A stretch of 31,678 nucleotides of DNA from a virus. Position 1 is the first letter of the stretch. Each line of letters begins with the position of its first letter. Shown one piece after another: positions 2,931-31,678 of the stretch. The translations under genes were made by a program, and so were the position numbers. The stretch is from positions 1 to 31,678 of the IMG/VR virus record IMGVR_UViG_3300027985_001790; one strand, given 5' to 3'. The notes beneath the pieces were generated by a model. It ran no database searches, was not told where the DNA came from, and was given only the letters and a program-made list of their open reading frames with translations.

Positions 2931-2932
2931 AC

Positions 2933-6445: not shown

Positions 6446-6579
6446 GAGAGGGAATCGCCTCTTTCGCCGGCGGGGCGACCGGCAAGGTGCCGGTGCCGGA
6501 TACTTAGCGGGATTCGGCGGAAATATCCGCTCGAATCCCGCTAAGGGACGCCAGTTAAGAAAAGAATGGAGATGTGGTT
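6446..6579 (+). promoter_or_regulatory. Structured intergenic RNA element A, downstream of gpT-like capsid gene
   Basis: The 134 bases between the capsid stop and the next gene hold ordered inverted repeats. TCGCC 6464-6468 pairs with GGCGA 6474-6478. CCGGCA 6479-6484 pairs with TGCCGG 6488-6493. A perfect 14-bp stem joins 6503-6516 to 6532-6545 and encloses a GCGGA/TCCGC hairpin with an AATA loop (6517-6530). No T-run follows, so it is not a normal terminator. The position directly downstream of a gpT homologue is the one for which the candidate RNA Mu-gpT-DE was named. Membership is an inference; a covariance-model search would decide it. Confidence 0.7.
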
Positions 6580-7095: not shown

Positions 7096-7463
7096 TGGCT
7101 GACCTGATTAAAGACGCTATGACCTGGCTGGAGGCGCGACGGCGGGAGCATCTTTCCATTCCTATTATATATAGGCGCGGAAATGCTTCCGCCGCCATCA
7201 CCGCCACCATCGGCAAGACAGTGTTCAAAGTCATCGACGACTATGGGCGCTATCAGCACATCGAAAGCCGCGATTATCTGGTGAATGCATCAGATCTGGT
7301 TCTGAACGGCCAGGCTATTCAGCCTCAATCCGGGGACGAAATCGAAGACTCCGGCTTCGTTTACGAGGTCATGGCTCCCAACGGTGAACCGGAATGGAGG
7401 TACTCCGACAGTTACCGACAGTGCTGCCGGATACACACAAAATTCATAGGAGAAACAGAATAA
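7095..7463 (+). CDS. Putative head-tail connector (head completion) protein
   Basis: This 122-aa protein starts at an ATG that overlaps the previous stop. It begins with a helix (LIKDAMTWLEARRREHL) followed by a beta-rich body (YRRGNASAAITATIGKT, IESRDYLVNASDLVL, QPQSGDEIEDSGFVYEV). Size, fold pattern and position between the decoration protein and the tail-completion genes fit a head-closure or connector protein. I recall similar 'W-rRrxHlsxxVxYrRG' proteins in other prophages at this place. It has no catalytic motif. The role is inferred mainly from gene order. Confidence 0.65.
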   Translation: MADLIKDAMTWLEARRREHLSIPIIYRRGNASAAITATIGKTVFKVIDDYGRYQHIESRDYLVNASDLVLNGQAIQPQSGDEIEDSGFVYEVMAPNGEPEWRYSDSYRQCCRIHTKFIGETE

Positions 7464-7706
7464 ATGCCCAATGGAAGCGATGACCCCGATCTGCGCGATG
7501 TCTGGGTGGCTGTAAACGAGTCGCGCCGTGAGCTTGCCGAGATGAAAGGAATGTTGTCGGTTCACTTTGCGGATCACAATATCCATCACAGTCCGCCGTG
7601 TCATGCTGCCGAGGATATGCGAAAAACCATGTTGTCCGCGGCCGGTGCCGCACTGCTGGCGTTGCTGGCGGCGATCGGATCGATAATAACGACTATGGTG
7701 AGGTAA
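7464..7706 (+). CDS. Small C-terminally membrane-anchored phage protein
   Basis: An 80-aa protein starts at ATG 7464, preceded by AGGAG. The N-terminal half is charged and helical (VNESRRELAEMKGMLSVHF). The C-terminal 25 residues form one hydrophobic segment (AAGAALLALLAAIGSIITT) with a short positive end. This soluble helix plus C-terminal membrane anchor resembles XhlA-type phage membrane proteins, which are associated with lysis or host-membrane attachment. It lies among head-tail joining genes, so a virion or ejection role is equally possible. The family assignment is tentative. Confidence 0.6.
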   Translation: MPNGSDDPDLRDVWVAVNESRRELAEMKGMLSVHFADHNIHHSPPCHAAEDMRKTMLSAAGAALLALLAAIGSIITTMVR

Positions 7707-7708
7707 TG

Positions 7709-8128
7709 ATGGCGACGATCATCGACATTGCCAACGCGGTGACGGCCGACATCAATCGCGGTTCTTTTGATATCGAATTCACGGCGGCCATGTTGCTGCT
7801 GCCTGAGTTCGAGTTGAAGGATATGAAAACGCTCAAGGTAACAGTGGTACCGAAGGCGGTAAAGTCCGAAAACCTTACCCGTGATACGTCGAGCCGGGAG
7901 GTTCAGGTCGACATCGGGGTGCAACAAAAGACGGCCGATTCCGAACGGATCGCGGCGTTGCTGAAACTGGTGGAAGACATTATCGCGGTTTTCGAACGCA
8001 AGCGGCTGACGGATTATGCCAGAGCAGTCTGCGTCAAGGGCGAGAACGATCCGGTGTACGACCTGGAACATATGCGGCAGATGCGGCAGTTCACCAGCGT
8101 AATCACGCTGACATTCAAGGTGATCTGA
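7709..8128 (+). CDS. Putative tail completion / tail terminator protein
   Basis: A 139-aa alpha/beta protein (MATIIDIANAVTADI, then strands with TLKVTVVPKAV and VQVDIGVQQ, and a C-terminal MRQFTSVITLTFKVI strand). It lies between the connector and the HK97 gp10-like gene, where siphoviruses encode the tail terminator that caps the tube. Two adjacent ATGs exist at 7706 and 7709. The second gives a better distance from GGTGAGG at about 7698-7703. It overlaps or abuts the previous stop, so it is coupled. No sequence motif proves the function. Confidence 0.6.
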   Translation: MATIIDIANAVTADINRGSFDIEFTAAMLLLPEFELKDMKTLKVTVVPKAVKSENLTRDTSSREVQVDIGVQQKTADSERIAALLKLVEDIIAVFERKRLTDYARAVCVKGENDPVYDLEHMRQMRQFTSVITLTFKVI

Positions 8129-8129
8129 G

Positions 8130-8522
8130 ATGTTCGGCATGAAAGGGAAATCGTGGTTCGATCCGGAATACGTCAAACGCAAAGCGAATAGGGGCTGTTT
8201 CAAAAGCCTGAATCACGCCGCAGCCGCGATCCGCATCACGGCAAGAAGAAGTATCCGACGAAACAGGAAGGAGTCGCCGGCGGGAACGCCGCCGCATACG
8301 AGACGCGGCCAGTTGAAACGCGGTCTGCTGTACAACGTGGACCGGGCCAAGCTGACAGCGGTGATCGGACCGGCGTATACGTTCGTCGGGAAGTCGGGCA
8401 GTGCGCATGAATTCGGTGGGGAGTATTTCGGACGGAAGTACCCCGCGCGTCCCTTCATGGGACCGGCGTTACAAGCAAATCTGCATAAAATTCCTCCCAT
8501 GTGGGCAAATTCAGTTAAGTAA
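8130..8522 (+). CDS. HK97 gp10-like head-tail / minor tail protein
   Basis: This 130-aa, very basic protein ends in a pattern typical of the HK97 gp10-like family: a HEFGG segment, then PARPFMGPAL, then a final helix. The N-terminal half holds the usual amphipathic helix with Arg-rich turns (AAAIRITARRSIRRNRK). Proteins of this family sit at the neck and help join the tail to the head. It starts at ATG 8130, one base after the previous stop, and is followed by structured element D and the tail tube gene. Confidence 0.8.
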   Translation: MFGMKGKSWFDPEYVKRKANRGCFKSLNHAAAAIRITARRSIRRNRKESPAGTPPHTRRGQLKRGLLYNVDRAKLTAVIGPAYTFVGKSGSAHEFGGEYFGRKYPARPFMGPALQANLHKIPPMWANSVK

Positions 8523-8606
8523 AAAAACAATTTCGCACCGGGTCGTACCCGATCGCCCCCGCCGGCGATAGAGGCGGGCGCCGAAGGCGAAATCTTGGAG
8601 GTGTGT
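8523..8606 (+). promoter_or_regulatory. Structured intergenic RNA element D, before the tail tube gene
   Basis: The 84 bases between two genes can fold almost completely. An outer stem joins ATTTCGC (8530-8536) to GCGAAAT (8587-8593). Inside it are CGGGT/ACCCG with a CGT loop (8539-8551) and a GC-rich arm (CGCCC 8554-8558 with GGGCG 8576-8580). The outer stem ends four bases before the GGAGG ribosome site (8597-8601) of the tail tube gene. The CGGGT-CGT-ACCCG hairpin resembles hairpin 3 of element C, but the branching differs from elements A, B and C. The folds are my reading and were not computed. Confidence 0.55.
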
Positions 8607-9044
8607 ATGAGTTATAAGGTAGGTTTTGAGGCGAAAATCTTTTATGGAACAGCCGGAACCAAGGCGGCAACCGAACTGAAGCATGTTGCTGATTCGGTAT
8701 CGCTGAACATTGAAAAAGGCAGCGTCGAAGTGGCGGTTCGGTCGTCGGAATGGAAGAAGGTGCTGTCGGGCCTGAAGGACGCATCGGAGGAATTCACGCT
8801 GGCCGGAAATACGGCGGATGCGGGGTTCCAGGCGATCAAGACGGCATTTTTCGGCAACTCGATGATCGCGTTGTTCATCGCCGACGCCGAGACCGGCGGT
8901 TCAGGGCTGGATGCCGACTTCGAGATTACCACCTTCAATCGATCCGAAGGATTGGAGGACGTCATCAACTACGCGGTGACGGCAAAACCCTCGGCGAATT
9001 CCGAACGCGAACCGGCGTGGGTCGATGGTTCCAGCGGTACATAA
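8607..9044 (+). CDS. Major tail tube protein
   Basis: A 145-aa beta-rich protein with the look of siphovirus tail tube subunits: MSYKVGFEAKIFYG, a central SSEWKKVLSGLKDASEEFTL loop and strand, and a late DFEITTFNRSEGLEDV segment. Hundreds of copies would stack into the tail tube. The start is ATG 8607, five bases after GGAGG; an upstream in-frame TTG at 8595 overlaps that ribosome site. The place after the neck genes and before the tail assembly chaperone supports the call. No sheath gene is visible, so the tail is non-contractile. Confidence 0.8.
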   Translation: MSYKVGFEAKIFYGTAGTKAATELKHVADSVSLNIEKGSVEVAVRSSEWKKVLSGLKDASEEFTLAGNTADAGFQAIKTAFFGNSMIALFIADAETGGSGLDADFEITTFNRSEGLEDVINYAVTAKPSANSEREPAWVDGSSGT

Positions 9045-9141
9045 TCCAAGTTCATTTTCTTTCTGCTTCCGTAGCACAAAGCGCGGAGCTTGAAGAAGAA
9101 CTAACGCAATCCGTCGTATGGATAAAAAGGAGATCTGAACA

Positions 9142-9624
9142 ATGAAATGTTTTAAGGATAACGCGGGACGCAACTGGACGGTCAGCGTCAATGTCGCCAC
9201 GGTCAAACGGGTAAAGTCGCTGCTGGATGTAAACCTGATGGAAGCGGTCGAGGGCGACCTCTTGGAACGTCTGGCGCTGGACCCGATTCTGCTGTGCGAT
9301 GTGGTTTATGCGATCTGCAAACCGGAGGCCGATACGCAGAACGTGACGGATGAACAGTTCGGCGCAGCCATGGCGGGCGATGCCATCGAACATGCCACGC
9401 TGGCCTTGCTGGAGGAACTGGCGGATTTTTTCCCGGAGGGGAAGCGTCGGGTGCTGCGGAAGGCGCTGGACAAGCTGAAAAACGTGGAAGCGAAAGCAAT
9501 CAACGCGGCGAACATCTACCTCGAAAGCCCCGAACTGGAGAAGAGAATCGACGCCGAGCTGAGCAATATTACCGGCTCCTCTGGGAACTTGGCGGCACCG
9601 CCGGAGTCAGTCCCGAATCCCTGA
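9142..9624 (+). CDS. Tail assembly chaperone, G-like frame
   Basis: This 160-aa acidic protein lies between the tail tube and tape measure genes, where siphoviruses encode the G/GT chaperone that loads the tape measure. The N-terminal pattern (FKDNAGRNWTVSVNVATVKR, LLCDVVYAICKPEA, ADFFPEGKRRVLRKALDKL) matches a family I recall at this position. The C-terminus is Gly, Ser and Pro rich (PPESVPNP). The start is ATG 9142 after AAAAAGGAG. A second conserved frame, shifted by -1, runs through its 3' end into the T-like ORF. A perfect slippery heptamer, T TTT TTC, lies in phase at 9426-9432, although a later shift would keep more of the G part. Confidence 0.8.
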   Translation: MKCFKDNAGRNWTVSVNVATVKRVKSLLDVNLMEAVEGDLLERLALDPILLCDVVYAICKPEADTQNVTDEQFGAAMAGDAIEHATLALLEELADFFPEGKRRVLRKALDKLKNVEAKAINAANIYLESPELEKRIDAELSNITGSSGNLAAPPESVPNP

Positions 9625-9638
9625 CGCTGCGCGAATTA
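9477..9638 (+). other. Open -1 frame overlapping the 3' end of the chaperone gene
   Basis: In the frame one base behind the G-like gene the sequence stays open through this stretch. From about 9561 it reads QYYRLLWELGG and then VSPESLTLRELL, which continues straight into the T-like ORF and has the conserved look of GT proteins. I find no ATG or GTG in that frame here. Expression of the T part is therefore best explained by -1 ribosomal frameshifting. Candidate sites are T TTT TTC at 9426-9432 and G AAA AAC at 9477-9483; neither is proven. Confidence 0.6.
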
Positions 9639-9845
9639 TTGATCCTGGCGGAGAATGCTGAAAAGGCCCGATGGAATCACACGGCATCCATTCTGGCGAT
9701 GCTGTTCAACCTCAATCGCGACCCGAAAAAGCACCGTCTGGTTACGCCGGAAACGTTCAATCCCTACGCCGATCACAAAGTTAAAAAGGACAGTCAGATG
9801 GCCTTCGACGCGATGAAAGCCATCTGGGTAAAAAATCAGGCATGA
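9639..9845 (+). CDS. Tail assembly chaperone, T-like frame (likely made as a frameshift fusion)
   Basis: As an isolated ORF this begins only with TTG at 9639 and has no ribosome site in front, so independent translation is unlikely. The sequence NAEKARWNHTASILAMLFNL, then NRDPKKHRL and a PETFNPYADH segment, is typical of the T-like protein encoded after G in siphoviral chaperone modules. The conserved part extends upstream in the same frame to at least 9561. The functional product is probably a G-T fusion that binds the tape measure protein. Its stop lies inside a 10-bp overlap (9836-9845) with the convergent DUF2442 gene. Confidence 0.72.
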   Translation: MILAENAEKARWNHTASILAMLFNLNRDPKKHRLVTPETFNPYADHKVKKDSQMAFDAMKAIWVKNQA

Positions 9846-10231
9846 ATCAGATCGGTCTTTTTACGGGGGCGACCGCCCTTGGCTCCGTTGGCGCGAGAGG
9901 CGGCGGCTTTTTTGGTACTGACGGTAGATCCTCCGGTTTGTGCAAAGGTTTTCCGGGCTTCTTTGACTCTGACCGAAGCCCGAATTTTCCGCCAGCCGTC
10001 GAGCGACGGCAGTTTGCTGGCATTTTCCGGATGGCGCAACAGTTCAAGTTCCAGACCGATCACCGCATCCGGCCATTCCAAACCATCGCCGAGGAGTTCG
10101 ATATGTTTGATTTCACGTAACGTGCATTCTTCAAACCACGGATAACGTTTGAACGGGAGGATAAAAGTTTCAGCTCCCAACACCACGGTAATGTGGTCCA
10201 AGGAGACTTCAGTGACTTCCGGCTTAGGCAT
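9836..10231 (-). CDS. DUF2442 domain protein (partner of DUF4160)
   Basis: This 131-aa protein starts at the ATG complementary to 10229-10231, overlapping the end of the DUF4160 gene by 8 bases. The first 90 or so residues fit DUF2442, including the closing LEWPDAVIGLELELL pattern. The C-terminal 40 residues are Lys, Arg, Ala and Gly rich (RANGAKGGRPRKKTD) and look like a disordered DNA-binding tail. DUF2442 genes are often paired with DUF4160 genes in putative toxin-antitoxin-like operons; function is not proven. Both lie antisense within the late operon. The 3' end overlaps the convergent tail chaperone gene, with no terminator between. Confidence 0.82.
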   Translation of the reverse strand: MPKPEVTEVSLDHITVVLGAETFILPFKRYPWFEECTLREIKHIELLGDGLEWPDAVIGLELELLRHPENASKLPSLDGWRKIRASVRVKEARKTFAQTGGSTVSTKKAAASRANGAKGGRPRKKTDLIHA

Positions 10232-10457
10232 GAGCGTGATTCCATTCTTTGATGAGGTCATCCTGGTTCTCCTTAATAAACTTTTGAACGCGATGTAATT
10301 CCGCATTGGAGACTTTGCCTTTTACCGACAATACCTCGGCATCTTCCAACGCAATCCGAATGACAATGTCATCCTTGATTACATGTACATGAGCCGGGTC
10401 ATGGTCGCCAAACCAGATTACAATCGCCCATCCTTTGTATCGCGCAACAACAGGCAT
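10224..10457 (-). CDS. DUF4160 domain protein (putative toxin-like partner)
   Basis: A 77-aa protein with the hallmark of DUF4160: a small basic and hydrophobic N-terminus (MPVVARYKGWAIVIWFGDH) followed by DPAHVHVIKDD, then a short helix with basic and acidic residues. The HVH motif is the family signature. It is the first gene of a two-gene minus-strand operon and is coupled to the DUF2442 gene by an 8-base overlap. A good promoter lies just upstream at 10479-10507. The pair is likely a moron expressed from the prophage independently of the late genes. A toxin role is suggested by association only. Confidence 0.85.
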   Translation of the reverse strand: MPVVARYKGWAIVIWFGDHDPAHVHVIKDDIVIRIALEDAEVLSVKGKVSNAELHRVQKFIKENQDDLIKEWNHAHA

Positions 10458-10478
10458 TGCAATTTCTCGTTTCTGATA

Positions 10479-10507
10479 ATTATAACCTAACTTGTTTGGT
10501 TTTTCAA
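10479..10507 (-). promoter_or_regulatory. Sigma70-type promoter for the DUF4160-DUF2442 operon
   Basis: Read on the minus strand, TTGAAA (complement of 10502-10507) is followed after exactly 17 bases by a consensus TATAAT (complement of 10479-10484). The DUF4160 ATG lies about 20 bases further downstream. The local sequence is AT-rich compared with the tail genes. It is the cleanest promoter I see in the window and explains how the antisense pair can be expressed in a lysogen. Confidence 0.75.
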
Positions 10508-10540
10508 TCCCTGTTATTTAGAAAAGGACATAAATAAGCG

Positions 10541-12925
10541 ATGGCAACTTCGAGTTCCAACATCAAGACCGGACTGGCTTACATCGAGCTGACGGTCGAA
10601 AACAACGCGATGGTGCGCGGTTTGAAAGCCGCCCAAGCGAAGCTGAAAGCGTTCAGCGATTCGATCACGGCGACGGGGAAAAAGCTGCTGCTGATCGGTG
10701 GTCTGATTGCGCTTCCGTTTGCTGCCGGGGTCAACGCCTATGCCGACTTCGAAAAGCAGATGGCGAATGTCTCGACGATGTTGGACGAGCCCGCGAAGTA
10801 CATGGATGAGTACCGCAAGAGCATCCGGGAGATGTCCATCGAGTTCGGTGAAGGGACCGATACGCTGTCGAAAGGACTGTACGATATCCTTTCGGCGTCG
10901 GTCGATCCCGCCAAGGCGCTGGATGTACTGGCGGTTGCGGCGAAAGCTGCGAAAGGCGGAATGACCGACACCGGGATTGCGGCGGACTCAATCACTACCA
11001 TCCTGAACGCATTCGGGCTTTCGGCAGACCACGCGTCCGATGTTTCCGATCTCTTGTTCGCCGTGGTTAAAAGAGGCAAGACGACCTTTGCGGAACTGGC
11101 TCCGTCCATCGGCCTTGTGGCTACGACCGCCGCGACCGCCGGGGTTTCATTCGAGGAATTCGGTGCGGCAATCGCGACCATGACCCGGCATGGGGTACGG
11201 ACTGAGAACGCAGTGACGGCTTTGAACGCGATCATTTCGACCTTCCTGAAACCGAGTGACGAAGCGGCAAAATACGCCCGTACGCTCGGTTTTGAAATGT
11301 CTTCCGCGGCGTTGAAAAGCGAGGGGCTTGCGGAAATTTTTGAGAAGATCAAAAAGTTGTCGCCAGATGACATTGCCACCTTGTTCCCGAATGTCCGGGC
11401 GATTCGCGGGATCCTGCCGGCACTTAAAAATATGGAAGGCTTCAACTACGACATGGAGGTGATGCGCAAGCGCGGCGGCATGGCGGAGGTAGCCTATCAG
11501 AAAATGGCGGCTACGCTTTGGGAATCCATGGCGCGGCTGAAACAGGCAGGGATTCAGGTACTGACCGTAATCGGTGAGGCATTAGGGCCGATGGTCAAGA
11601 CCAAAACAGATCTCTTCGTAGCCTATCTCAAGCAGGTAATCGAGTGGATCAAGGCGCACAAGGAAGTGATCGTCACGGTAACGAAAATCGGCGCGGCAGT
11701 GACGGCGGCCGGGGCGCTTCTGGTCGGATTCGGCACCGTGTTGCAAGTAGCGGCGGTGGCGGCCGGATTGCTGGGCGGGGTGCTCAAAACGGTACTGTTC
11801 GTGATCGTCGGCGGCAGTAAAATCCTCTGGCTGCTGATGGCTCCGCTGGTCCTGATCAAAGCCGGGATTATTGCCCTTGGCGGCGTTCTTGGTGCGCTGC
11901 TGACGCCGGTGGTACTGGTCAAACTGGCCATCGTCGGAATCGTGGCTTATCTGCTATACGCGACCGGAGTAATCGGTCAGGTGGTCGATTGGGTGAAGGA
12001 AAAGTTTGCCGTCGTTTCTGAATTCGCGAAAACATCGTTTCAGGGAATCAAGGATGCTCTGGCGGCGGGAGACGTGATGCTGGCGGCAAAGATTTTCTGG
12101 CAGTCGCTGAAAGTTGCCTGGCTGGCCGGGATCAATGAACTGAAGCAGCTCTGGGTGACGTTCAAAAAGTGGTATCAGACGGTTACCTCGGAGACTTTTT
12201 ACGGCGCGATTTCGATCATCACCGACGCCTGGGCATCGCTGAAAACCGTCTGGATCAACACCGTTTCGTTCCTGCTGGATATCTGGAACATTTTTTTAAA
12301 AAGCCTGAAATCGGCCTGGATCGCGTCACAGGCATTTCTGCAGAAATGCTGGCTGGATTTCATGGGCATGATCGATCCGAGCATTGATGTGGAAGCGGCG
12401 AAAAAGCTGGTCGACGATGAGACCGAGATGAAGGAAAACGAGGCGCAAAGCGAGCTCAATAACAAATTGAAAGAATCCGCCGCATCCGCCAATCAGGACA
12501 AGGCGGCAATTGAAAAGGAACGCGCCGATAAACAGGCGATTATCGCCCAGCAGCAGGAAGCGGATAGAGCCGGAATCGACGCCGAAGCGAGTGACGCCAT
12601 GAAAGCATCCATGGACGCCTTGAAACAGGGCAAGGATGAATGGAAGAAAGCCATCGACGAAGCCAAGGCAAAGAAAGAATCCGGCGAGAAGCAGTCCGGC
12701 AAAATCGGCGAGTTGCAGGACAAGATCAAAAACGCCGCTCCAGAAGTCGCGGCAGCTCATGGCAAGACTGAAGTCGGCGGGACGTTTTACGCTGATGCAT
12801 TGAAAGCGCTGTCATCCGGCAACGCCGCCGAACGCACCGCGACTGCAACCGAGGAAATCAAAAAGAACACCAGGAAAACCAACCAGCTCCTGGAGAATAA
12901 TTCCAGCGGGCTGGTTTATGAGTGA
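10541..12925 (+). CDS. Phage tail tape measure protein
   Basis: This 794-aa protein sets the tail length and later helps DNA entry. It has the TP901-type tape measure core: GGLIALPFAAGVNAYADFEKQ, the MSIEFGEGTDTLSKGLYDI region, and TTILNAFGLSADHASDVSD, up to about residue 310. Hydrophobic segments follow (about 385-480), then a long Ala, Lys, Glu-rich coiled-coil region (about 620-760). The start is ATG 10541; the ribosome site is weak (AAAAGG, about 13 bases away). It follows the antisense pair, so late transcription must cross that insertion. At this length a tail in the 100 nm range is expected from the usual ratio; that is an estimate. Confidence 0.92.
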   Translation: MATSSSNIKTGLAYIELTVENNAMVRGLKAAQAKLKAFSDSITATGKKLLLIGGLIALPFAAGVNAYADFEKQMANVSTMLDEPAKYMDEYRKSIREMSIEFGEGTDTLSKGLYDILSASVDPAKALDVLAVAAKAAKGGMTDTGIAADSITTILNAFGLSADHASDVSDLLFAVVKRGKTTFAELAPSIGLVATTAATAGVSFEEFGAAIATMTRHGVRTENAVTALNAIISTFLKPSDEAAKYARTLGFEMSSAALKSEGLAEIFEKIKKLSPDDIATLFPNVRAIRGILPALKNMEGFNYDMEVMRKRGGMAEVAYQKMAATLWESMARLKQAGIQVLTVIGEALGPMVKTKTDLFVAYLKQVIEWIKAHKEVIVTVTKIGAAVTAAGALLVGFGTVLQVAAVAAGLLGGVLKTVLFVIVGGSKILWLLMAPLVLIKAGIIALGGVLGALLTPVVLVKLAIVGIVAYLLYATGVIGQVVDWVKEKFAVVSEFAKTSFQGIKDALAAGDVMLAAKIFWQSLKVAWLAGINELKQLWVTFKKWYQTVTSETFYGAISIITDAWASLKTVWINTVSFLLDIWNIFLKSLKSAWIASQAFLQKCWLDFMGMIDPSIDVEAAKKLVDDETEMKENEAQSELNNKLKESAASANQDKAAIEKERADKQAIIAQQQEADRAGIDAEASDAMKASMDALKQGKDEWKKAIDEAKAKKESGEKQSGKIGELQDKIKNAAPEVAAAHGKTEVGGTFYADALKALSSGNAAERTATATEEIKKNTRKTNQLLENNSSGLVYE

Positions 12926-22818: not shown

Positions 22819-23247
22819 ATGTCAAAAGTAAAAGAAGTGAAAAAGCTGCTGAAACTGGTCGATAAGTACGATCTGGAAGGCCGCGAAATCCTGAAGAAAT
22901 ACACTCCGACGAAACTCGCCAAAATCTACAACGGCATCGGGCCGGACGCGTTCCCGGAATGGCTGCGTGAGGTCATCACTGACCTGCATCCGTCACTGGC
23001 CATTGTCGCCCTCATACACGATGTGGAGTGGTACGAAAGCGATAACACCGAGGCGAATTTTACCGCCTCGAACGACCGTTTTCGCCGCAACGGCTATAAA
23101 GTTGCCAAGGCCGAATACGGGTGGTGGAATCCTGCGCGGTATTTCGTAATGTGGGATGCCCGCAAGTTCGCCTGGGCCTGCCAAGAGTTCGGCTGGGGAG
23201 CCTGGCTTACCGATGGCATCGTTGCCCCGATTGCCGGTAAACGCTGA
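22819..23247 (+). CDS. Conserved small protein with HDVEWY motif
   Basis: A 142-aa protein starts after AAGGAG. The N-terminus is Lys-rich and helical (VKKLLKLVDKYDL). The central IVALIHDVEWYES and the following NFTASNDRFRRNGY segment have the spacing of 'HDxxY...aDxxFxxN' seen in small phage proteins sometimes related to phospholipase A2-like folds. Many Trp residues follow (EYGWWNPARYF, FAWACQEFGWGAW). It is the last gene before the late-operon terminator and next to the lipoprotein. A membrane or lysis role is possible, but the assignment is weak. Confidence 0.55.
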   Translation: MSKVKEVKKLLKLVDKYDLEGREILKKYTPTKLAKIYNGIGPDAFPEWLREVITDLHPSLAIVALIHDVEWYESDNTEANFTASNDRFRRNGYKVAKAEYGWWNPARYFVMWDARKFAWACQEFGWGAWLTDGIVAPIAGKR

Positions 23248-24031: not shown

Positions 24032-25198
24032 TTATTCCGGCAATTCCATCCCAGTATTCAGCAGTTCGAGATAGCGGCGATAGCGGAACAGACGATTGCG
24101 TTTCTGACGAGTCAGTTCCTCAACAATTCCAAGTTCGACAAGTTGCCGCAATGCCTTGTTGACGGTTGCCGGCGTAAGACCGGTGAGGCGTACCAGATTC
24201 TGCGCCCCGGCAATAGGGTGTGGCAACAGGGACTGATATACCTGAATCACCGATGCGGCACCTCGCCCCAACGAATCGATATTTTTCCGATCCTCATCTA
24301 TCAACTGATGCAATTCGCCGATGATTTTGCATCCTTGACGCGCCCCGGCGATTACAGCGTCGGCAAAGAAGTCGAGCCACTTTTCCCAGTCACCGTTCAG
24401 GCGGACTTCATTGAGCAGTTCGTAATAGTATTGCCGATGCAATTTGAAATGGTAGCTGACATACAGCAACGGTTGGCGCAAAATACCGCCGGAACACAAT
24501 AACAAGGTGATCAGCAAACGCCCCAATCGACCGTTCCCGTCAAGAAACGGATGGATAGTCTCAAACTGCACATGCGCCAGCGCCGCTTTGACCAGTACCG
24601 GCGTTACGGTTTCATGATCGTGCAAAAACAACTCGAATTGCCCCAGGCACTCAGGAACGGCCTCCGGCGGCGGCGGAACAAATCGGGCATTGCCAGGACG
24701 GCTTCCGCCGATCCAGTTCTGGCTGCGCCGGAATTCTCCCGGCGTTTGTTGTTGTCCGCGTCCTTTTGCCAAGAGGACTTGATGGATTTCGCGCAGCAAC
24801 CGAAGCGATAGCGGAAAGCCTTCTGACAGGCGTTGAATGCCATGATTCATGGCGGCGACGTAGTTGCTGACTTCTTGAACATCATCCAGCGGCGTCCCCG
24901 GAGCTTCGTCAATTTCAAACATCAACAGATCGGAAAGCGACGATTGAGTCCCCTCAATCATCGAAGAAAGCACCGCCTCTTTACGGATGTACATATACAG
25001 GAATTGCCCGATGTCCGGCAGCAAGTCGGAAACGCTGTCAAGGCGTCCCAGTTCAAGCATCGCCAGGTCAAGTTTGTTCTGCAAGGCTCCGTCGATTTCC
25101 AGCGGCGGAACAGGCGGAAGCGACGCCGGAATAAACGCTTTTACCGTTTCTCCGACGGTGCTGACGGTTACATATTTGCCTTGCAGTTTGCGTTTCAT
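24032..25198 (-). CDS. Fic family protein (probable AMP-transferase)
   Basis: A 388-aa protein with the Fic catalytic motif HPFLDGNGRLGR (residues 216-227; His 216 would be the base). The upstream flap region is NWIGGSRPGNARF. An N-terminal SSMIEG (78-83) matches the inhibitory (S/T)xxxE(G/N) helix, so the enzyme is of the self-inhibited class with the inhibitory part in cis. The last 60 residues form a winged helix (LTGLTPATVNKALRQLVELG) that may bind DNA. Fic proteins usually transfer AMP to Ser, Thr or Tyr hydroxyls of target proteins. I choose the ATG at 25198; the frame extends to 25321 but runs across the promoter. Targets are unknown. Confidence 0.9.
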   Translation of the reverse strand: MKRKLQGKYVTVSTVGETVKAFIPASLPPVPPLEIDGALQNKLDLAMLELGRLDSVSDLLPDIGQFLYMYIRKEAVLSSMIEGTQSSLSDLLMFEIDEAPGTPLDDVQEVSNYVAAMNHGIQRLSEGFPLSLRLLREIHQVLLAKGRGQQQTPGEFRRSQNWIGGSRPGNARFVPPPPEAVPECLGQFELFLHDHETVTPVLVKAALAHVQFETIHPFLDGNGRLGRLLITLLLCSGGILRQPLLYVSYHFKLHRQYYYELLNEVRLNGDWEKWLDFFADAVIAGARQGCKIIGELHQLIDEDRKNIDSLGRGAASVIQVYQSLLPHPIAGAQNLVRLTGLTPATVNKALRQLVELGIVEELTRQKRNRLFRYRRYLELLNTGMELPE

Positions 25199-25594
25199 CG
25201 ATAACCCCGAAGTTAAAATATAAAAAACTCTTATTTTAATATAATAGCAAATACTAAAATAATCAAGCGCCGTGTTATACGTTGAAAGGAATTTTTCTTT
25301 GGCGACGCCGGGAAAGTTCATCCATTACGATTGATTTAATGTGCTTCCGCACCGGATTTGTTCAGATAAGCCCTGTTTATTCATGATTCCACCAGAATTT
25401 CCATGAAGCATGCCGTACCCGTCTCGGTCCCATTTTCAGACTCGCGCCAATGTTGGATTAATTGTTGTAAATACTTGGATATAAAGATTTTATGGAGTTG
25501 CTATATCGGCACACTGGATCAAACATATACACAGAAAGCAAGAGAAGCGCACAACGCCTTGAATAGCAACGAACAACAACGGAGCGACAAGAAA
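25199..25594. promoter_or_regulatory. Divergent control region between Fic and the amidoligase operon
   Basis: This 396-base stretch holds no gene I believe in. On the minus strand TTGATT (complement of 25261-25266), 17 bases, and TATATT (complement of 25238-25243) form the Fic promoter. A dyad overlaps it: TTATTTTAATAT (25231-25242) and ATACTAAAATAA (25251-25262) match in 11 of 12 positions. This is a good operator candidate for the winged helix of Fic. I see no convincing promoter for the rightward operon; TATAAA near 25480 lacks a good -35 box. Confidence 0.6.
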
Positions 25595-26488
25595 ATGAAC
25601 CTCAACGAACAGACCTTCGGAACGGAATTGGAATACGTAAGAATCAGCCGCGAGAACGCCGCCAAGGCGATCCAGAGTGTAGTCGGCGGCAGCGTCCGCT
25701 ACGCCGGTGGCCCCTACGATGCTTGGGAATGCCGCGCAATCGACGGTCGGGTGTGGCGGGCGGTCAACGACGCCAGCCTGATCGACGCCCCAAGCCACCT
25801 CCGAGCCGAAGTCGTTACGCCGATCCTTAAGTACGCCGACCTCGACACCTTGCAGGAAGTGGTTCGCGCCCTGCGCCGTGCCGGAGCCCGCGCCACTTCC
25901 TGCTGTTCGCAACACGTTCACCTCGGCATGGAAGACGCCACGCCGGAACAGATCGCCAACCTTGCCAAGATTTTCTACAAGCAGGAAGAGCTGATTCTGA
26001 AGTCCCTCGGCACCAGCGAAAGTCGCCTTAGCCACTACACCCAGCGGACCAACCCAGAATTCATCGAACGGATTTCCAACCGCAAACCACGTACCAGCAA
26101 CGAACTCAACCACGCCTGGTTTGGCTACAGCAACCCGGATCCAGCCCATTACGACTCAAGTCGGTATCGCGATCTTAACCTCGCCAACCTGTGGCGGATC
26201 AAGACCGCAGAAGTAAGGGCGGCGGAGGGATCGACCCACGCCGGCGAGGTCAAAGCGGTGATTGTCCTGTGTCTCGCCCTCGCGGTAAAAGCTAAGAACG
26301 CCAAAGCCGCCAGCTCCGCTAAACGCGAGTACAACGAAGCCAGTGCCAAGTACGACTTCCGAGTGTTTCTCCTCCGCCTTGGCTTGATAGGCGACGAATT
26401 CAAAGCGGTACGTCAACACCTGTTGAAACGCTTGCCGGGCAGCGCCGCGTGGAAGAACGGCAGACCGGCGGCTGCGGCCAATGCCTAA
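25595..26488 (+). CDS. Putative amidoligase (COOH-NH2 ligase family)
   Basis: A 297-aa protein with the pattern of the amidoligase family, which is related in fold to glutamine synthetase and joins amines to carboxyl groups with ATP. Typical pieces are FGTELEYVRI at the N-terminus (metal-binding Glu residues), WRAVNDASL, AEVVTPIL, SQHVHLGMED (the conserved HVHLG) and a late DLNLANLWRIKTAEVRAAEG with the substrate-side Arg and Glu. The start is ATG 25595 after GGAG; an upstream in-frame extension from 25403 is unlikely. The following genes encode a glutamine amidotransferase and a gamma-glutamylcyclotransferase-like protein. That neighbourhood is known for this family and suggests a peptide or amide conjugation and removal system. 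Confidence 0.88.
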   Translation: MNLNEQTFGTELEYVRISRENAAKAIQSVVGGSVRYAGGPYDAWECRAIDGRVWRAVNDASLIDAPSHLRAEVVTPILKYADLDTLQEVVRALRRAGARATSCCSQHVHLGMEDATPEQIANLAKIFYKQEELILKSLGTSESRLSHYTQRTNPEFIERISNRKPRTSNELNHAWFGYSNPDPAHYDSSRYRDLNLANLWRIKTAEVRAAEGSTHAGEVKAVIVLCLALAVKAKNAKAASSAKREYNEASAKYDFRVFLLRLGLIGDEFKAVRQHLLKRLPGSAAWKNGRPAAAANA

Positions 26489-26537
26489 ACAAAACAACGG
26501 GGGCGGCGACGCCCCCAACAAAACGGAGAATTTGACC

Positions 26538-27014
26538 ATGAAAGTACGTATCAACGAAACCGATCTTAACGGCAAGCCCATCCGCAATTCCGGTGAAATC
26601 CTGACCGGAGAAAACCATCTCGACATTGTTGACGGCATGAAGATGTCGCCGTTCACCGCCGGACTCGAACCTTTGGCCTACATGCGCGACGTGTTGGCCC
26701 GAAGCGGCAACCCCGAGTTCGTGTTGCCGGACGAACCGGAAGCGGCGGCAAAGGCCTTTCTGTTGAAACTGGCGGCAACGGGACTGGTCCAGTTTATCGA
26801 GGACGATCCGTACCCGCCGCGCCTGATGGAGGTCATCATTGCGATTCGGGATTCCGGCAAAACCAATATGCTGGACATTCCCGTGGTGGTTAAGCTCGTC
26901 CTTGAAAGCGGCGAAAACGAAGTCGCAAACTGGATCAACACTCACCATCGCGACTATGCCGAGATCATCTTTCACGGACGCCCGGCCAACCATCCAACAT
27001 CCGAGGTGAAATAA
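26538..27014 (+). CDS. DUF5049-type protein in the amidoligase operon
   Basis: A 158-aa protein starts at ATG 26538, nine bases after GGAG. The C-terminal 60 residues (VIIAIRDSGKTNMLDIPVVV, then NTHHRDYAEIIFHG) match the DUF5049 pattern. The N-terminal part (MKVRINETDLNGKPIRNSGE) is not known to me. It overlaps the glutamine amidotransferase start by one base in TAATG. Its constant place between amidoligase and amidotransferase suggests it is an accessory or substrate-binding part. A frame start at 26481 exists but has no ribosome site of comparable quality. Confidence 0.75.
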   Translation: MKVRINETDLNGKPIRNSGEILTGENHLDIVDGMKMSPFTAGLEPLAYMRDVLARSGNPEFVLPDEPEAAAKAFLLKLAATGLVQFIEDDPYPPRLMEVIIAIRDSGKTNMLDIPVVVKLVLESGENEVANWINTHHRDYAEIIFHGRPANHPTSEVK

Positions 27015-27787
27015 TGTGCGGACTTTGCGGCATCATTTTCGGGAAGGCTAACCGTAGTCACCGCGACTACGCCAAGCTGATCTCGGCATTCACCCGGTTG
27101 CTGGCCCTGAACGAAACCCGAGGCAAGGACGCGGCGGGCATGGCGGTGGTTCGCGACGACCGTGATTACTACCTGCTCAAACGGCCCGGACGGGCGATTG
27201 TGCTGATCGGCTTGCCGGAGTATTTCGACCGGCTGGAAATGGTTGATGACCACGCCGTTTTGCTGATGGGACATACCCGGTTGGCAACAGTTGGGCAAAT
27301 CGAACGCATGGACAACGCTCAGCCGCTCCGCGCCGGATCATGCATGGGGACGGTCAACGGCACGATCACCAACGCCGATGAACTGTTCTGTAAGCACAAA
27401 CTGCCCCGGTTCGCCGAGGTCGACAGCGAACTGATCGTGCGGCTGGCCGACAAAAGCATCGTCAACAATGACATCTCCCTGAAGCGGTTCATCCCGGCGT
27501 TACGATCCTGCCACGGACAGCTCAGCGCGGTCATCGTCAACCTTGGCAATCCCGACCAGATTTTGCTGTTGAAAGGCAATCGCCCGTTGACCGCCTACTA
27601 CCACGAGGATTTGAACGTGGTGGCGTATTCGTCGGAAGCCCGGCATCTGGATCGGGCGCTGTCCGACCTCGACGGCTGGTGTGATTTGGAACTCAAAGCA
27701 ATGACCTACGCGGCCTTCGACACTGACGATTTGTCGGAACCGAAGACTGGAACTTTCACCTTTAACGCCCATTCGGGCAGGAGGTAA
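27014..27787 (+). CDS. Class II glutamine amidotransferase
   Basis: A 257-aa protein begins MCGLCGIIFG. Cys 2 becomes the N-terminal nucleophile after removal of Met, as in class II glutaminase domains, which release ammonia from glutamine. Further signatures are ETRGKDAAGMAVV, GHTRLATVG, and GSCMGTVNGTITNADEL with the NGTITN oxyanion segment. It has no synthetase domain, so the ammonia must be passed to a partner. The amidoligase two genes upstream is the obvious candidate. It starts in a TAATG overlap with the previous gene and ends two bases before the next. Confidence 0.92.
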   Translation: MCGLCGIIFGKANRSHRDYAKLISAFTRLLALNETRGKDAAGMAVVRDDRDYYLLKRPGRAIVLIGLPEYFDRLEMVDDHAVLLMGHTRLATVGQIERMDNAQPLRAGSCMGTVNGTITNADELFCKHKLPRFAEVDSELIVRLADKSIVNNDISLKRFIPALRSCHGQLSAVIVNLGNPDQILLLKGNRPLTAYYHEDLNVVAYSSEARHLDRALSDLDGWCDLELKAMTYAAFDTDDLSEPKTGTFTFNAHSGRR

Positions 27788-27789
27788 TC

Positions 27790-28260
27790 ATGTGTAACAT
27801 AGCGATTTTCTGTTACGGTACGCTCCAGCGAAATTGTGGAAATCATCAATTCTGCCGCAATTCTGTCAGCATTGAACCGGCCACGGTTTGCGGACGGCTT
27901 TACCAGCTCAGCGTCGGTTACCCGGCGTTACTGGTTCCGACAGAAAACATTCTGAAAATTGGTACGAATTCGCCAAGCAAGGATGCCCGGACGCAGTATG
28001 ACTTGAATTCCAACCGGATCGATTTTCATGCGCCGGGTGGCTGGTATGAGGTTCATGGCGAACTGGTGACTTTTTCAGACCCGGAATTCAGTCTACCTCC
28101 GATCGATCGTTTAGAGGGCGTGCCCTGCTATTACCAGCGGGTACTTATCCCCGCACGTCGGGAAAAGGGTGGCATTACCACGGCGTGGGTTTACATCATG
28201 AACCGCGTTCCGTGTGGTTCAACGTTATTGAAAAACGGTCGATGGAATCCGTCGCATTAA
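27790..28260 (+). CDS. Gamma-glutamylcyclotransferase / AIG2-like protein
   Basis: A 156-aa protein with the cyclotransferase signature: YGTLQRN at residues 9-15, GRLYQLSVGYPAL, and a catalytic Glu at 109 in IDRLEGVPCYYQR. This fold turns gamma-glutamyl-amine bonds into 5-oxoproline. In an operon with an amidoligase it is expected to remove or trim gamma-linked amides. It starts two bases after the amidotransferase stop, with AGGAGG before it, so it is translated with it. The family is clear; the substrate is not. Confidence 0.87.
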   Translation: MCNIAIFCYGTLQRNCGNHQFCRNSVSIEPATVCGRLYQLSVGYPALLVPTENILKIGTNSPSKDARTQYDLNSNRIDFHAPGGWYEVHGELVTFSDPEFSLPPIDRLEGVPCYYQRVLIPARREKGGITTAWVYIMNRVPCGSTLLKNGRWNPSH

Positions 28261-28310: not shown

Positions 28311-28904
28311 ATGAACGCAAACGAAATCATCATCGGCAAGGATTACATCCTGAAAATCGCTCACAACGAAGTAAAAGTCAAAGTGCTGAGCAACGTCGGC
28401 CACAGCTGGATCGTCAAAACCGCAGGCAGCAAGGTCATGCCGGTCCAGAACGCTGACCGCTTTGTAAGGCCGTTGAACGTCGAACCGGAATCGGTAGCAT
28501 CGACAGGCGAAGTCTCGCTTCAATCCTCGGAAGCGGAGGGAACGACACCTCCTGCAACGCCTCCTGATGCCGAAACGACGGCCACTGCGGCGGCTATTCT
28601 GCCGGAACCAGTAACCGTTCCGACTTCGGCAACCCCGGCCACTGAAGCCACAGAATCGAAAAACAAGCTCACCATGCTGGATGCGGCGGCTCAGGTATTG
28701 AAAGATGCCGGGCATCCGATGTCGGTCAAAGAAATCATTGCCGCCATGGAAGATTCCGGCCTTTGGAAACCAGGGAAAGGCCTTATCCCGGCAAACTCGC
28801 TGGTGGCGGCAATCGGTCTTGAGATCCGCAAACGCACCACGCAACGCTTCCGCAAAACAGCACCGGGAACCTTTGAATTTGCAGGAGACGAACGCCATGA
28901 GTAA
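28311..28904 (+). CDS. HARE-HTH domain protein
   Basis: A 197-aa protein. Residues about 120-192 fit the HARE-HTH (HB1, ASXL, restriction endonuclease) domain: KLTMLDAAAQVLKDAGHPMS, VKEIIAAMEDSGLW, and a closing KTAPGTFEFAG strand. The first 55 residues form a small beta domain (GKDYILKIAHNEVKVKVLS), followed by a Thr, Pro, Ala, Glu-rich flexible linker. HARE-HTH domains are linked in the literature to DNA modification, restriction and chromatin proteins. In this place it may be a DNA-binding regulator or recruiter for the amidoligase operon or the recombinase. The start is ATG 28311 after AAAAGG. Confidence 0.8.
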   Translation: MNANEIIIGKDYILKIAHNEVKVKVLSNVGHSWIVKTAGSKVMPVQNADRFVRPLNVEPESVASTGEVSLQSSEAEGTTPPATPPDAETTATAAAILPEPVTVPTSATPATEATESKNKLTMLDAAAQVLKDAGHPMSVKEIIAAMEDSGLWKPGKGLIPANSLVAAIGLEIRKRTTQRFRKTAPGTFEFAGDERHE

Positions 28905-29373
28905 CGATAAAAACCGTACTGGCGTCCTCCGCCAGCTGGCCGCCTTGCAAACCATGAACCGCCAGGAAGTCGAGGATAAATGGCGCGACCTTTACGGTAC
29001 CGAACCGCCCCGCTTCAAACTTTCGTTCATCCAGCGGCGGTTGGCCTACCGCATTCAGGAACTTTTCTACGGCGGCATTGAACCGGCGGTCAAGGAAAAG
29101 TTTCAGGAATTGGCGGCCAGAGATCCGATGGCATCGCAACTGGTCCGGCCGCAACCGACAACGAATACCGAAGGGAAGATTCTTCCCGGCACCCGCTTTT
29201 TGCGGGAATGGAACGGCAAAGTATACGAGGCAACAGCCTTGGAAAAAGGATTCGAATACCGCGGCAAGCCTTATCGATCGCTGACCGCTATTGCCACCGA
29301 GATCACCGGAACAAAATGGAACGGCCCAATCTGGTGGGGAGTGAGAAAACGAAAGAAAACCGCGAACCGATGA
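28897..29373 (+). CDS. DUF2924 family protein
   Basis: A 158-aa protein overlaps the previous gene by 8 bases and starts at ATG 28897, nine bases after AGGAG. The order of MNRQEVEDKWRDLYGTEPPR, LSFIQRRLAYRIQELFYG, LPGTRFLREWNGKVYEAT and GKPYRSLTAIATEITGTKW is typical of DUF2924. Genes of this family are very often placed directly before a large serine recombinase, as here. They are thought to assist the recombinase, but this is not shown. It overlaps the possible ATG at 29370 of the recombinase. Confidence 0.88.
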   Translation: MSNDKNRTGVLRQLAALQTMNRQEVEDKWRDLYGTEPPRFKLSFIQRRLAYRIQELFYGGIEPAVKEKFQELAARDPMASQLVRPQPTTNTEGKILPGTRFLREWNGKVYEATALEKGFEYRGKPYRSLTAIATEITGTKWNGPIWWGVRKRKKTANR

Positions 29374-29384
29374 AAGGAACTCGT

Positions 29385-31325
29385 ATGACGGAAGTACAAA
29401 ACATCAAGCGTTGCGCCATATACACTCGAAAATCCCATGAAGAAGGTTTGGAACAGGCCTACAACAGTCTGGACGCCCAGCGGGAATCCGCTGAAAATTT
29501 CATCAAAAGTCAGAAACACAACGGCTGGATGATTTTGCCGGAGCATTACGATGACGGCGGATTTTCCGGCGGCAACATGGATCGCCCGGCGCTGAAACGC
29601 CTTCTGGGAGATGTCGAAGCCGGTAAAATAGACATAATTTTGATTTACAAACTTGATCGATTGTCCCGCTCGTTATTGGACTTTATGAAACTCGCCGAAA
29701 TGCTGGAACAGCACCACGTCAGTTTCGTATCCGTCACCCAGGACATCAACACTTCCACCTCGTCGGGACGCATGATGCTGAACATCCTGATGACGTTTGC
29801 CCAGTACGAACGCGAGGTCATTGCCGAACGCATCCGCGATAAAATAGCCGGAGCCAAGCGGCGCGGCAAATACTGCGGCGGGCCGCCGGTGCTGGGCTAC
29901 GATGCCGACCCGGAAAGTAAAAAGCTGGTGATCAATAAAGAGGAAGCCGCAATCGTTAGGGAAGCCTTTATCCTTTATGCCCGGTACGGTTCGGCCATGG
30001 AAACGGCCCGTCGCTTGAACGAAACGGGGTATCGGACCAAAGCGTGGATATCGCGGAAAAACATTTCTCACGGCGGGGAAATGTTTGATATCGGGACCGT
30101 TTACCGGATGCTGAACAATCCGCTTTATGTGGGGGATGTCTATTTCAAAGGTCAGTCGTTCCCCGGCGAACACGAGGCGATTATTGATCGGGGACTCTGG
30201 GATACCGTTCAAAAAGTGTTGAAAGACAATGCCCCGGTTGCCGCCGGATACCGAAAGAATACCATCACCTCACCGTTCAAGGTCCTTTTGCGTTGCGGCC
30301 ATTGCGGCGGGGCGTTCGGTATTTCGTACGCCAAAAACAACAAGAAAAACGCCGACAACCGCCGGTATATGTACTATCTCTGCATCAAGGACACTGACCG
30401 GGGAGAACGCTGCTGTCCGCTGTCGCGGGTTCCGGCCGGGGACATCGACCGCGTGATTCTGGAGCAGATGGCACGGATTTTCAAAACACCGTCGGTGTTG
30501 GCGAAAGTTTATGGCGAGTTGCGGCAGAACGAAATTCAACAGCGTAAGGTAGTACAGCAACAACAAGCGGTACTGGAGGGCAAACAGGAGAAAATCCGCA
30601 AGCAGCTTCTGGCCGGCAGCGATCCGACCGAACTGCGTCCGCAATTCGTCGAAATTGAAGCGCAAATTACCCAGATCAAGGAACAGGCCAAAGAACTCAT
30701 CCCGGAGACGGCGCTGAAAAATCTGCTGAAAACCTGCGATTCCATCGAGGCGATCTGGGAAGAATTGTTCCCTGTGGAACGTTATCGGCTGGCACATTTA
30801 CTGTTCGACCGCATCCAGATTTTTACCGATCATCTGGTCTTGGACGTGAAAACGGACGGGTTGAAATCACTGGTCAAAGAACTCGGCACCGACGAATCGA
30901 TTACGGTGGCGAAATCGGAGGAAGGCAACGGGCAGATTGTCCGGCTGACGGTTCCGCTGGTAATCCGGCGTCGCCATGGACGCAAAGTCGTCTTGGGCCC
31001 CGAGAACGCGGATCAGGCGAAAGTTGTCCCGGAAGTCGGAGAAAACGGTCTCAGCGCCATAGCGTTACATCTGGCCCGAGGCTATGCCTGGATGGAAATG
31101 ATCGAGTCCGGTAAGGTCGCGTCCATCGCGGAACTGGTAAAAATCCTTAATGTCGACAAAAACTATGTCGTCCGCGATCTGCGGCTGCTCAGTCTTGCCC
31201 CGGATATTCAGAAGCTGATCGCCGAAGGCAGGGAACCGGCAACTCTCTCCCTGATCAAGCTTCGCGAACCATTCCCGGATGATTGGGAGGCGCAGAGGGA
31301 GAGGTTTTTGGACGCAACGTCATGA
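29385..31325 (+). CDS. Large serine recombinase (phage integrase)
   Basis: A 646-aa protein that would integrate and excise the phage by cutting at attP and attB. The resolvase domain shows YTRKS with the nucleophile at Ser 17, SLDAQRESAENF, DDGGFSGGNMDRPALKRLL and ILIYKLDRLSRS. The recombinase domain follows (PPVLGYD, ARRLNETGYRTKAW, YRMLNNPLYVGDVYFKG). A zinc ribbon has Cys 304 and 307 (RCGHCGG) with further Cys at about 333 and 343-344, followed by a coiled coil. The C-terminal extension (about 540-646) is typical of the DUF2924-linked type. I prefer ATG 29385 (AAAGGAAC just upstream); ATG 29370, which overlaps the DUF2924 stop, is also possible. Confidence 0.93.
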   Translation: MTEVQNIKRCAIYTRKSHEEGLEQAYNSLDAQRESAENFIKSQKHNGWMILPEHYDDGGFSGGNMDRPALKRLLGDVEAGKIDIILIYKLDRLSRSLLDFMKLAEMLEQHHVSFVSVTQDINTSTSSGRMMLNILMTFAQYEREVIAERIRDKIAGAKRRGKYCGGPPVLGYDADPESKKLVINKEEAAIVREAFILYARYGSAMETARRLNETGYRTKAWISRKNISHGGEMFDIGTVYRMLNNPLYVGDVYFKGQSFPGEHEAIIDRGLWDTVQKVLKDNAPVAAGYRKNTITSPFKVLLRCGHCGGAFGISYAKNNKKNADNRRYMYYLCIKDTDRGERCCPLSRVPAGDIDRVILEQMARIFKTPSVLAKVYGELRQNEIQQRKVVQQQQAVLEGKQEKIRKQLLAGSDPTELRPQFVEIEAQITQIKEQAKELIPETALKNLLKTCDSIEAIWEELFPVERYRLAHLLFDRIQIFTDHLVLDVKTDGLKSLVKELGTDESITVAKSEEGNGQIVRLTVPLVIRRRHGRKVVLGPENADQAKVVPEVGENGLSAIALHLARGYAWMEMIESGKVASIAELVKILNVDKNYVVRDLRLLSLAPDIQKLIAEGREPATLSLIKLREPFPDDWEAQRERFLDATS

Positions 31326-31416: not shown

Positions 31417-31678
31417 CTACACGTTCATTGATAAATAATTGCAAAGCAATCTGGTTATTTCCATTCTTCGTTTTTCCGCCTGCGGTTTATTCCAAGTAGC
31501 AACCTCATTTTTAAGTTCTTGAACAGAAACATAACAACTTTGGGAATACGCTTCCGGTTTCTTTTTCCTGTCATTGCGAATAGAACGGTTGAGGGATTGC
31601 TCAAAAATTGTCAAATTACCAAGGCGATTCAACTCTTCCCCCCATTCGTTCCAGACAAGTTCACGGTCATTTTCATCC
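31417..31678 (-). CDS. C-terminal part of a DUF262/DUF1524 (GmrSD-like) protein, truncated by window edge
   Basis: The minus-strand frame is open to the window edge and ends at 31417, giving at least 86 residues. The pattern RLGNLTIFEQSLNRSIRND, then KKKPEAYSQS, and NKPQAEKRRMEITRLLCNYL is the C-terminal signature of DUF1524, the HNH-type half of GmrSD-like modification-dependent restriction proteins. In these, DUF262 supplies the NTPase half. The gene starts outside the window. Whether it belongs to the host or to another mobile element is unclear. A methionine-start ORF at 31632 exists but is internal. Confidence 0.75.
   Translation of the reverse strand, partial: DENDRELVWNEWGEELNRLGNLTIFEQSLNRSIRNDRKKKPEAYSQSCYVSVQELKNEVATWNKPQAEKRRMEITRLLCNYLSMNV

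Follow-up and report, generated by a model that had tools for sequence, protein, structure and literature searches.

Lytic podophages of the phiEco32/LUZ24 type carry cassettes that comprise a COOH.NH2 ligase, an amidoligase, a class II amidotransferase, an ATP-grasp protein, and a gamma-glutamyl cyclotransferase (PMC5498523). As summarized in papers that cite Iyer et al. (2009), these cassettes are predicted to alter peptidoglycan and to prevent superinfection in this way (PMC5498523, PMC10580990, PMC11253131). In the literature searched, the genes of phage amidoligase cassettes, predicted since 2009, are assigned no reaction, target, or phenotype, and neither altered peptidoglycan nor superinfection exclusion is demonstrated for the phiEco32 type. 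A further described set belongs to Phage-ZRK32 of a deep-sea planctomycete, for which an aid to nitrogen metabolism was proposed from growth data on the whole phage (PMC10945688).

The window analysed here is an entire record of 31,678 bases, IMG/VR virus IMGVR_UViG_3300027985_001790. Like the phiEco32/LUZ24 cassettes, it combines Amidoligase_2, a class II amidotransferase, and a cyclotransferase in a phage. Unlike them, its quartet of genes has a short free-standing amidotransferase and an added DUF5049 protein, and its carrier is temperate, with the operon at the integrase end. The ATP-grasp ligase and the second COOH.NH2 ligase were absent from the scanned open reading frames of the window, which may be a partial phage genome; because these two defining ligases are missing, the quartet is classed apart from phiEco32-type cassettes. 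Larger cassettes of the phiEco32/LUZ24 type were seen in three loci of our survey (L006, L007, and L018).

An earlier, sequence-only reading of this DNA had linked amidoligase neighbourhoods of this type to predictions by Iyer and colleagues, which is right in kind as judged from the citing papers. It also knew of no experiment on such a set. This holds for gene-level tests, but the similar set of Phage-ZRK32 has been tested for growth effects (PMC10945688).

Gene organization of the window

The window carries lambda-type genes for portal, capsid, cement, head-tail joining, and tape-measure proteins. Tail genes extend to about 22.2 kb and are followed by an accessory stretch; genes for a HARE-HTH protein, a DUF2924 protein, and a recombinase occupy the right end. 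The four-gene operon sits between the tail genes and the recombinase. The features considered below are:

184-1887, cytosine methylase or other DNA methyltransferase
24032-25321, minus strand, SoFic-type Fic AMP-transferase with C-terminal winged helix (Pfam Fic_N/Fic; PADLOC SoFic, E 4.6e-117)
25595-26488, plus strand, Amidoligase_2 (glutamine-synthetase-fold carboxylate-amine ligase), 297 aa (Pfam PF12224, E 1.9e-51; phrog_2443, E 3e-77)
26538-26828, plus strand, N-terminal domain of the DUF5049 protein, residues 1-97, without Pfam family (homologue comparison)
26829-27014, plus strand, DUF5049 domain, C-terminal part of the 158-aa protein (PF16468, E 1.7e-12)
27014-27787, plus strand, free-standing class II (Ntn) glutamine amidotransferase, 257 aa (GATase_6, E 2.3e-12; GlmS matches)
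27790-28260, plus strand, gamma-glutamyl cyclotransferase (GGACT/AIG2-like), 156 aa (PF06094, E 1.5e-17; motifs)
28311-28904, plus strand, HARE-HTH protein adjoining the operon downstream (PF05066, E 2.7e-11)
28897-29373, plus strand, DUF2924 protein accompanying the recombinase (PF11149, E 1e-43)
29370-31325, plus strand, large serine recombinase (integrase) at the prophage end (Resolvase/Recombinase/Zn ribbon; phrog_95, E 1.7e-123)
31420-31677, minus strand, C-terminus of a GmrSD-type restriction gene flanking the recombinase (GmrSD_C, E 3e-9)

The four genes that the sequence-only reading had placed at 25595-28260 were all found intact, with Pfam matches well above the cut-offs. The profile searches that it had named as a check matched Amidoligase_2, GATase_6, GGACT, and DUF5049 and no other families. 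The genes are separated by a 49-base gap, a 1-base overlap (TAATG), and a 2-base gap; the last two values (-1 and +2 bases) agree with the overlaps and gaps of 1-2 bases said to join the last three genes. A purine-rich stretch lies upstream of each of the four starts. Homologues place the start of the DUF5049 protein at 26538, the listed reading frame at 26481 being overlong.

The GmrSD-type gene at the right edge is presumably a host gene, and the prophage may be located beside or inside this defence gene. A 142-aa protein without Pfam family (GIGPDAFPEWLR...HPSLAIVALIHDVEW type) is encoded at 22819-23247 and again precedes the amidoligase in relatives from gut phages (L002, L003, L029, L041, and L100).

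The presence of DNA methyltransferases, both in the window (184-1887) and near the corresponding genes in Heliusvirales, would fit DNA base hypermodification through amide chemistry, but the methylase of the window lies 23 kb off, and the scanned reading frames of the window include no oxygenase, kinase, or glycosyltransferase of the known pathways. We consider such a role highly improbable.

Conservation of the operon

A search with an amidoligase alignment yielded 80 loci from genomes and 80 from viruses, in which gene order was determined with local HMMs. The quartet recurs in the same order in 16 loci from about seven phyla. Taxa with the same order and strand are Thermodesulfobacteriota, Pseudomonadota, Verrucomicrobiota, Kiritimatiellota, Planctomycetota, Ozemobacter, Armatimonadota, and a Chloroflexota-labelled MAG; part of the loci are MAGs, in which mis-binning is possible. 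Cultured isolates with the quartet include Desulfosarcina, Desulfobulbus, Desulfofustis, Ectothiorhodospira, and Thiohalocapsa. In Lentisphaerota and others, the set occurs in a version that lacks the DUF5049 domain.

Pairwise distances of the four proteins across the 16 loci correlate with r values of 0.89-0.98 (Mantel p 0.0002), a pattern that matches the expectation of co-inheritance. Since the four-gene set is conserved, a chance arrangement is excluded. A lack of repeated co-occurrence would have spoken against the joint pathway proposed from gene spacing; the neighbourhood survey found the quartet in 16 loci instead, and the proposal is strongly supported by the recurrence of same-order sets across phyla, the correlated divergence, and the domain fusion described below.

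Relatives were reached by the amidoligase alignment only: no close relatives turned up when viral contigs were scanned with the amidotransferase, the cyclotransferase, or the DUF5049 protein. The amidoligase tree groups the window with gut-type phage amidoligases in a well-supported clade of their own, away from the cluster of the other quartets. No amidotransferase was detected in the other sampled members of this clade, some of whose contigs end early. The position of the window amidoligase off the main quartet cluster implies one of two histories: the nearest kin of the window lost the set, or the set was put together anew with a second lineage of amidoligases.

Remnants without an amidoligase were observed as well. 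Loci L214, L215, and L216 keep DUF5049 and the amidotransferase, and L214 also the cyclotransferase; the remnant in L214 lies beside DISARM-like genes and that in L215 beside BREX genes.

Amidoligase

The window protein matches Amidoligase_2 (PF12224) with a score of 175.8 bits against a cut-off of 22. Its active-site residues are present (E11xE13, H107xH109, and E206xR208), and E11, E13, H107, H109, E206, and R208 are invariant or nearly so among 73 homologues; the loss of key Glu/His residues, which would have counted against a ligase, is thus not seen. A sequence search against the PDB gave nothing useful. The AlphaFold model (pLDDT 95.7) was matched by Foldseek to YbdK (E 2e-5) and glutamine synthetase (E 1e-4) with TM values of 0.4-0.5. 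Among PDB folds, YbdK/GCS2 and a related protein predicted to be a glutathione synthase came first and glutamine synthetase next, with Dop/PafA as weaker matches. Glutamine synthetase and gamma-glutamylcysteine ligases activate the gamma-carboxylate of glutamate, while PafA ligates Pup onto lysine. Because the model resembles YbdK, glutamine synthetase, and Dop/PafA, ATP-dependent carboxylate-amine ligation is the likely reaction of the window enzyme.

Proteins of about 230-260 aa beside DUF5049 in Firmicutes, which match amidoligases, were considered as second ligases and rejected. They have neither catalytic motifs nor a Pfam match, yet PHROGs assigns them to the same family (PHROG 2443), and they are therefore called dead homologues here. 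Such proteins adjoin DUF5049 or an active amidoligase in L011 (4108-4791), L009 (4146-4796), L014 (3558-4355), and many other Firmicutes phage loci, and one of them is annotated as 'virulence-related protein' in its record.

DUF5049 protein

This protein consists of two small domains, an N-terminal one of about 95 residues and a C-terminal DUF5049 domain. The match to DUF5049 (PF16468; 47.5 bits against a cut-off of 28.7) covers residues 98-147 only, and the Pfam search assigned no family to the N-terminal domain. AlphaFold (pLDDT 87) predicts a helical DUF5049 domain and a small beta/alpha N-terminal part; a fold search of the model against the PDB gave no significant match. DUF5049 is named nowhere in the literature searched.

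The surroundings of DUF5049 were sampled without reference to amidoligases in 297 Desulfobacterota and 148 Clostridia genomes. In 21 of the 25 sampled matches, the domain adjoins an amidoligase, a dead homologue, or an amidotransferase. Of the ten matches in Desulfobacterota, nine lie directly ahead of an amidotransferase and six are preceded by an amidoligase; for 12 of the 15 in Clostridia, an amidoligase or a dead homologue is no more than about 1.5 kb away. In Myxococcota and gut phages, the N-terminal domain is found on its own next to amidoligases. Among 193 Myxococcota genomes, it was matched 37 times, in 33 cases at 1.2 to 3.2 kb downstream of an Amidoligase_2 gene of the same strand. 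Among the other four are a frame-broken copy, a match at a contig end, and one that is weak and partial. Since these independent samplings each lead to amidoligases, both domains are separately coupled to them, and the window and its relatives carry the two fused in one protein. We regard this separate coupling as the strongest new result; it supports a role of the DUF5049 protein as a partner, and two function-less domains, DUF5049 and the unnamed N-terminal one, would thereby gain an assignment as dedicated partners of amidoligases.

A fusion of DUF4314 and DUF5049 was observed at L014 (4357-4767), and several loci from Firmicutes (L008, L098, and L144) have a DUF4314-like protein after the cyclotransferase. 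Weak matches to DUF5049 segments in L034-L036 were rejected after a full-length search. A C-terminal 'CADK' shared by the relatives was considered as a tag and likewise rejected, because the start of the following gene overlaps this ending and dictates it.

An obligate small partner would also fit protein tagging. The ligase would then put glutamate, ammonia, or a short peptide on a protein of the host or the virion, and the cyclotransferase would take it off again; the DUF5049 protein would act as adaptor or be the substrate that bears the tag. The resemblance of the ligase fold to the Pup ligase PafA and the depupylase Dop, together with the position of the operon after tail and baseplate genes in relatives, is consistent with such a scheme. 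However, YbdK and glutamine synthetase are matched better than Dop/PafA, the copies in Heliusvirales adjoin the terminase rather than tail genes, and with 'CADK' explained as an overlap artefact no conserved C-terminal tag sequence is left. Protein tagging is rather unlikely in our estimate.

Amidotransferase and cyclotransferase

The amidotransferase aligns to GlmS, and its N-terminal catalytic Cys and the Arg, Asn-Gly, and Asp that bind Gln are intact (N-terminal MCG, GHTR, VNG, and VDSE). It has no fused synthetase domain, and the amidoligase is its candidate ammonia partner by gene order only. A weak match to EgtC was also obtained. EgtC, which with EgtA forms the amidotransferase-ligase pair of ergothioneine synthesis, acts on a gamma-glutamyl amide. 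As far as the sequence tells, the window enzyme could release ammonia or, like EgtC, act on such an amide. Many related operons have no amidotransferase, so that it is not essential to the core chemistry. In L042 and L088, the catalytic Asn-Gly is replaced by Ala-Gly, and tyrosine-recombinase-like genes appear between ligase and amidotransferase in L088; these two enzymes appear to be decaying or repurposed copies.

Motifs of the cyclotransferase are intact (the substrate loop YGTL at 9, and DRLEG with the catalytic Glu at 106). Enzymes of the gamma-glutamyl cyclotransferase family act only on glutamyl groups whose alpha-amine is free; the enzyme could therefore remove a terminal gamma-glutamyl group, but not internal D-glutamyl bonds of peptidoglycan.

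The same enzymes might reroute glutamine, glutamate, and gamma-glutamyl compounds for the phage or the host, in nitrogen or glutathione-like metabolism. The similarity of the ligase to gamma-glutamylcysteine-type ligases and the parallel with EgtC-EgtA both point this way. A metabolic role was suggested for Phage-ZRK32, which has a similar set and promotes growth, but this effect is not tied to these genes (PMC10945688). Moreover, the dedicated small partners and dead amidoligase paralogues fit macromolecular targeting better, and no transporter or metabolic gene was seen to recur among the neighbours. We hold auxiliary metabolism to be unlikely.

Prophage setting and defence genes

We read the quartet as an accessory operon that a temperate phage carries close to its attachment end. 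Upstream genes in the closest quartet family encode Baseplate_J, Tail_P2_I, and DUF4815 proteins, and in relatives the operon ends a myovirus-type prophage. The complete genome of Desulfosarcina alkanivorans contains an element with terminase-like, primase-like, and tail genes and, at the far end, a DUF2924-recombinase pair like that of the window (translations read by eye). About 12 kb of this prophage are 96-98% identical in DNA among Desulfobacterota genomes, and the match breaks off at the cyclotransferase or close to it. Ectothiorhodospira and two MAGs share shorter stretches with the same degree of identity. A near-identical myovirus-type segment (about 1-12,250) was seen in eight loci of Desulfobacterota and Gammaproteobacteria (L023, L021, L022, L024, L026, L037, L050, and L056). 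With its exchangeable defence cargo directly after the amidoligase operon, this segment is possibly a broad-host carrier of BREX and restriction systems.

The downstream cargo varies and includes BREX (several BrxC families), type I restriction-modification, DISARM-like genes, methylases, and unrelated genes. At least one defence-gene match was found within 10 kb directly downstream in 18 of the 23 loci with readable sequence, loci that are not independent of each other. In DUF4815 prophages, the operon is part of the conserved core and the cargo begins after it; nearness to defence genes may thus only mirror the end position. PADLOC gave no matches for the four operon proteins.

The Fic protein of the window carries HPFLDGNGR (HPFxxGNGR motif). 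SoFic was reported to protect against phages via AMPylation and abortive infection (PMC12249575). The sequence-only reading had seen in this gene a second protein-modifying enzyme; a SoFic-type gene with a PADLOC match is indeed present, but it is not evidently part of the pathway. A 67% identical Fic adjoins the operon in Thiohalocapsa marina (L051), and the gene is missing from the loci of other relatives. Fic was therefore rejected as an operon member and is probably an independent defence gene.

SoFic, BREX, restriction-modification, and DISARM-like neighbours, as well as the pairing of forming and removing enzymes, would suit abortive defence, in which the ligase forms a harmful adduct that the cyclotransferase or amidotransferase neutralizes until infection upsets the balance. 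The ligase-free remnants with DUF5049, amidotransferase, and, in L214, cyclotransferase fit this scheme without proving it, but the operon lies within the conserved part of the prophage. Abortive defence appears very unlikely to us.

Proposed function

The four genes probably form a small machine for joining and removing amide bonds, and ligation, glutamine-derived ammonia, and reversal by the cyclotransferase make up a plausible chemistry as far as can be judged from the proteins encoded. Our main reading, which we put forward tentatively and at somewhat less than even chances, is that the quartet both forms and trims amide or gamma-glutamyl links on a target in the host cytoplasm, the benefit being exclusion of other phages. 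It builds on the identity of the genes, their intact active sites, the predicted ligase fold, co-inheritance, the coupling of the small domains to amidoligases, and the defence neighbourhood.

From these we infer the following reactions, target, partner role, and exclusion function. The amidoligase would spend ATP to activate a carboxylate and then join an amine to it. The amidotransferase would handle glutamine, either by releasing ammonia or by gamma-glutamyl transfer or hydrolysis. The two-domain DUF5049 protein would serve as a dedicated partner of the ligase, as adaptor or carrier. The cyclotransferase would take off terminal gamma-glutamyl groups as 5-oxoproline, and for this reason the modification would be both made and trimmed by one operon. 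No signal sequence was visible in the four proteins on inspection by eye, so the target should be cytoplasmic. The likeliest candidates are a precursor of peptidoglycan and a protein of the host; the gain would be exclusion of competing phages.

A further-reaching proposal, which is doubtful at present, is that the quartet is an unrecognised superinfection-exclusion or defence system of prophages that acts by reversible amide or gamma-glutamyl tagging with a partner built from two domains that are each independently linked to amidoligases. If true, phage amidoligases in general would gain new specificity modules in DUF5049 and the unnamed N-terminal domain. The position beside changing defence genes makes superinfection exclusion a concrete hypothesis. 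Prophages with the quartet reside in cultured and sequenced isolates (such as Desulfosarcina alkanivorans, Desulfofustis glycolicus, and Ectothiorhodospira shaposhnikovii), which renders the prediction directly testable.

Comparison with known systems

Addition and removal of a gamma-glutamyl group within one pathway is known from butirosin synthesis, in which the ligase BtrJ adds the group and the GGACT-type cyclotransferase BtrG removes it. Unlike the window ligase, BtrJ is an ATP-grasp enzyme, not one of glutamine-synthetase fold, and belongs to an antibiotic pathway. Heliusvirales and Clostridia prophages and conjugative elements share with the window the same amidoligase family (35-42% identity), an adjacent cyclotransferase, and, in some cases, a nearby DUF5049. 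They differ by having no amidotransferase, often a dead amidoligase homologue, and small DUF4314 or zinc-ribbon-like neighbours. Phage-ZRK32 resembles the window in its amidoligase, glutamine amidotransferase, and cyclotransferase (PMC10945688). It differs in having a glutathione-synthase gene and in being an extrachromosomal chronic phage, whereas the window represents a prophage with the set at the integrase end. By analogy, the quartet may work like the phiEco32-type cassettes, in a compact four-gene form that sheds complexity, with neither the ATP-grasp nor the second ligase, and is kept across several phyla.
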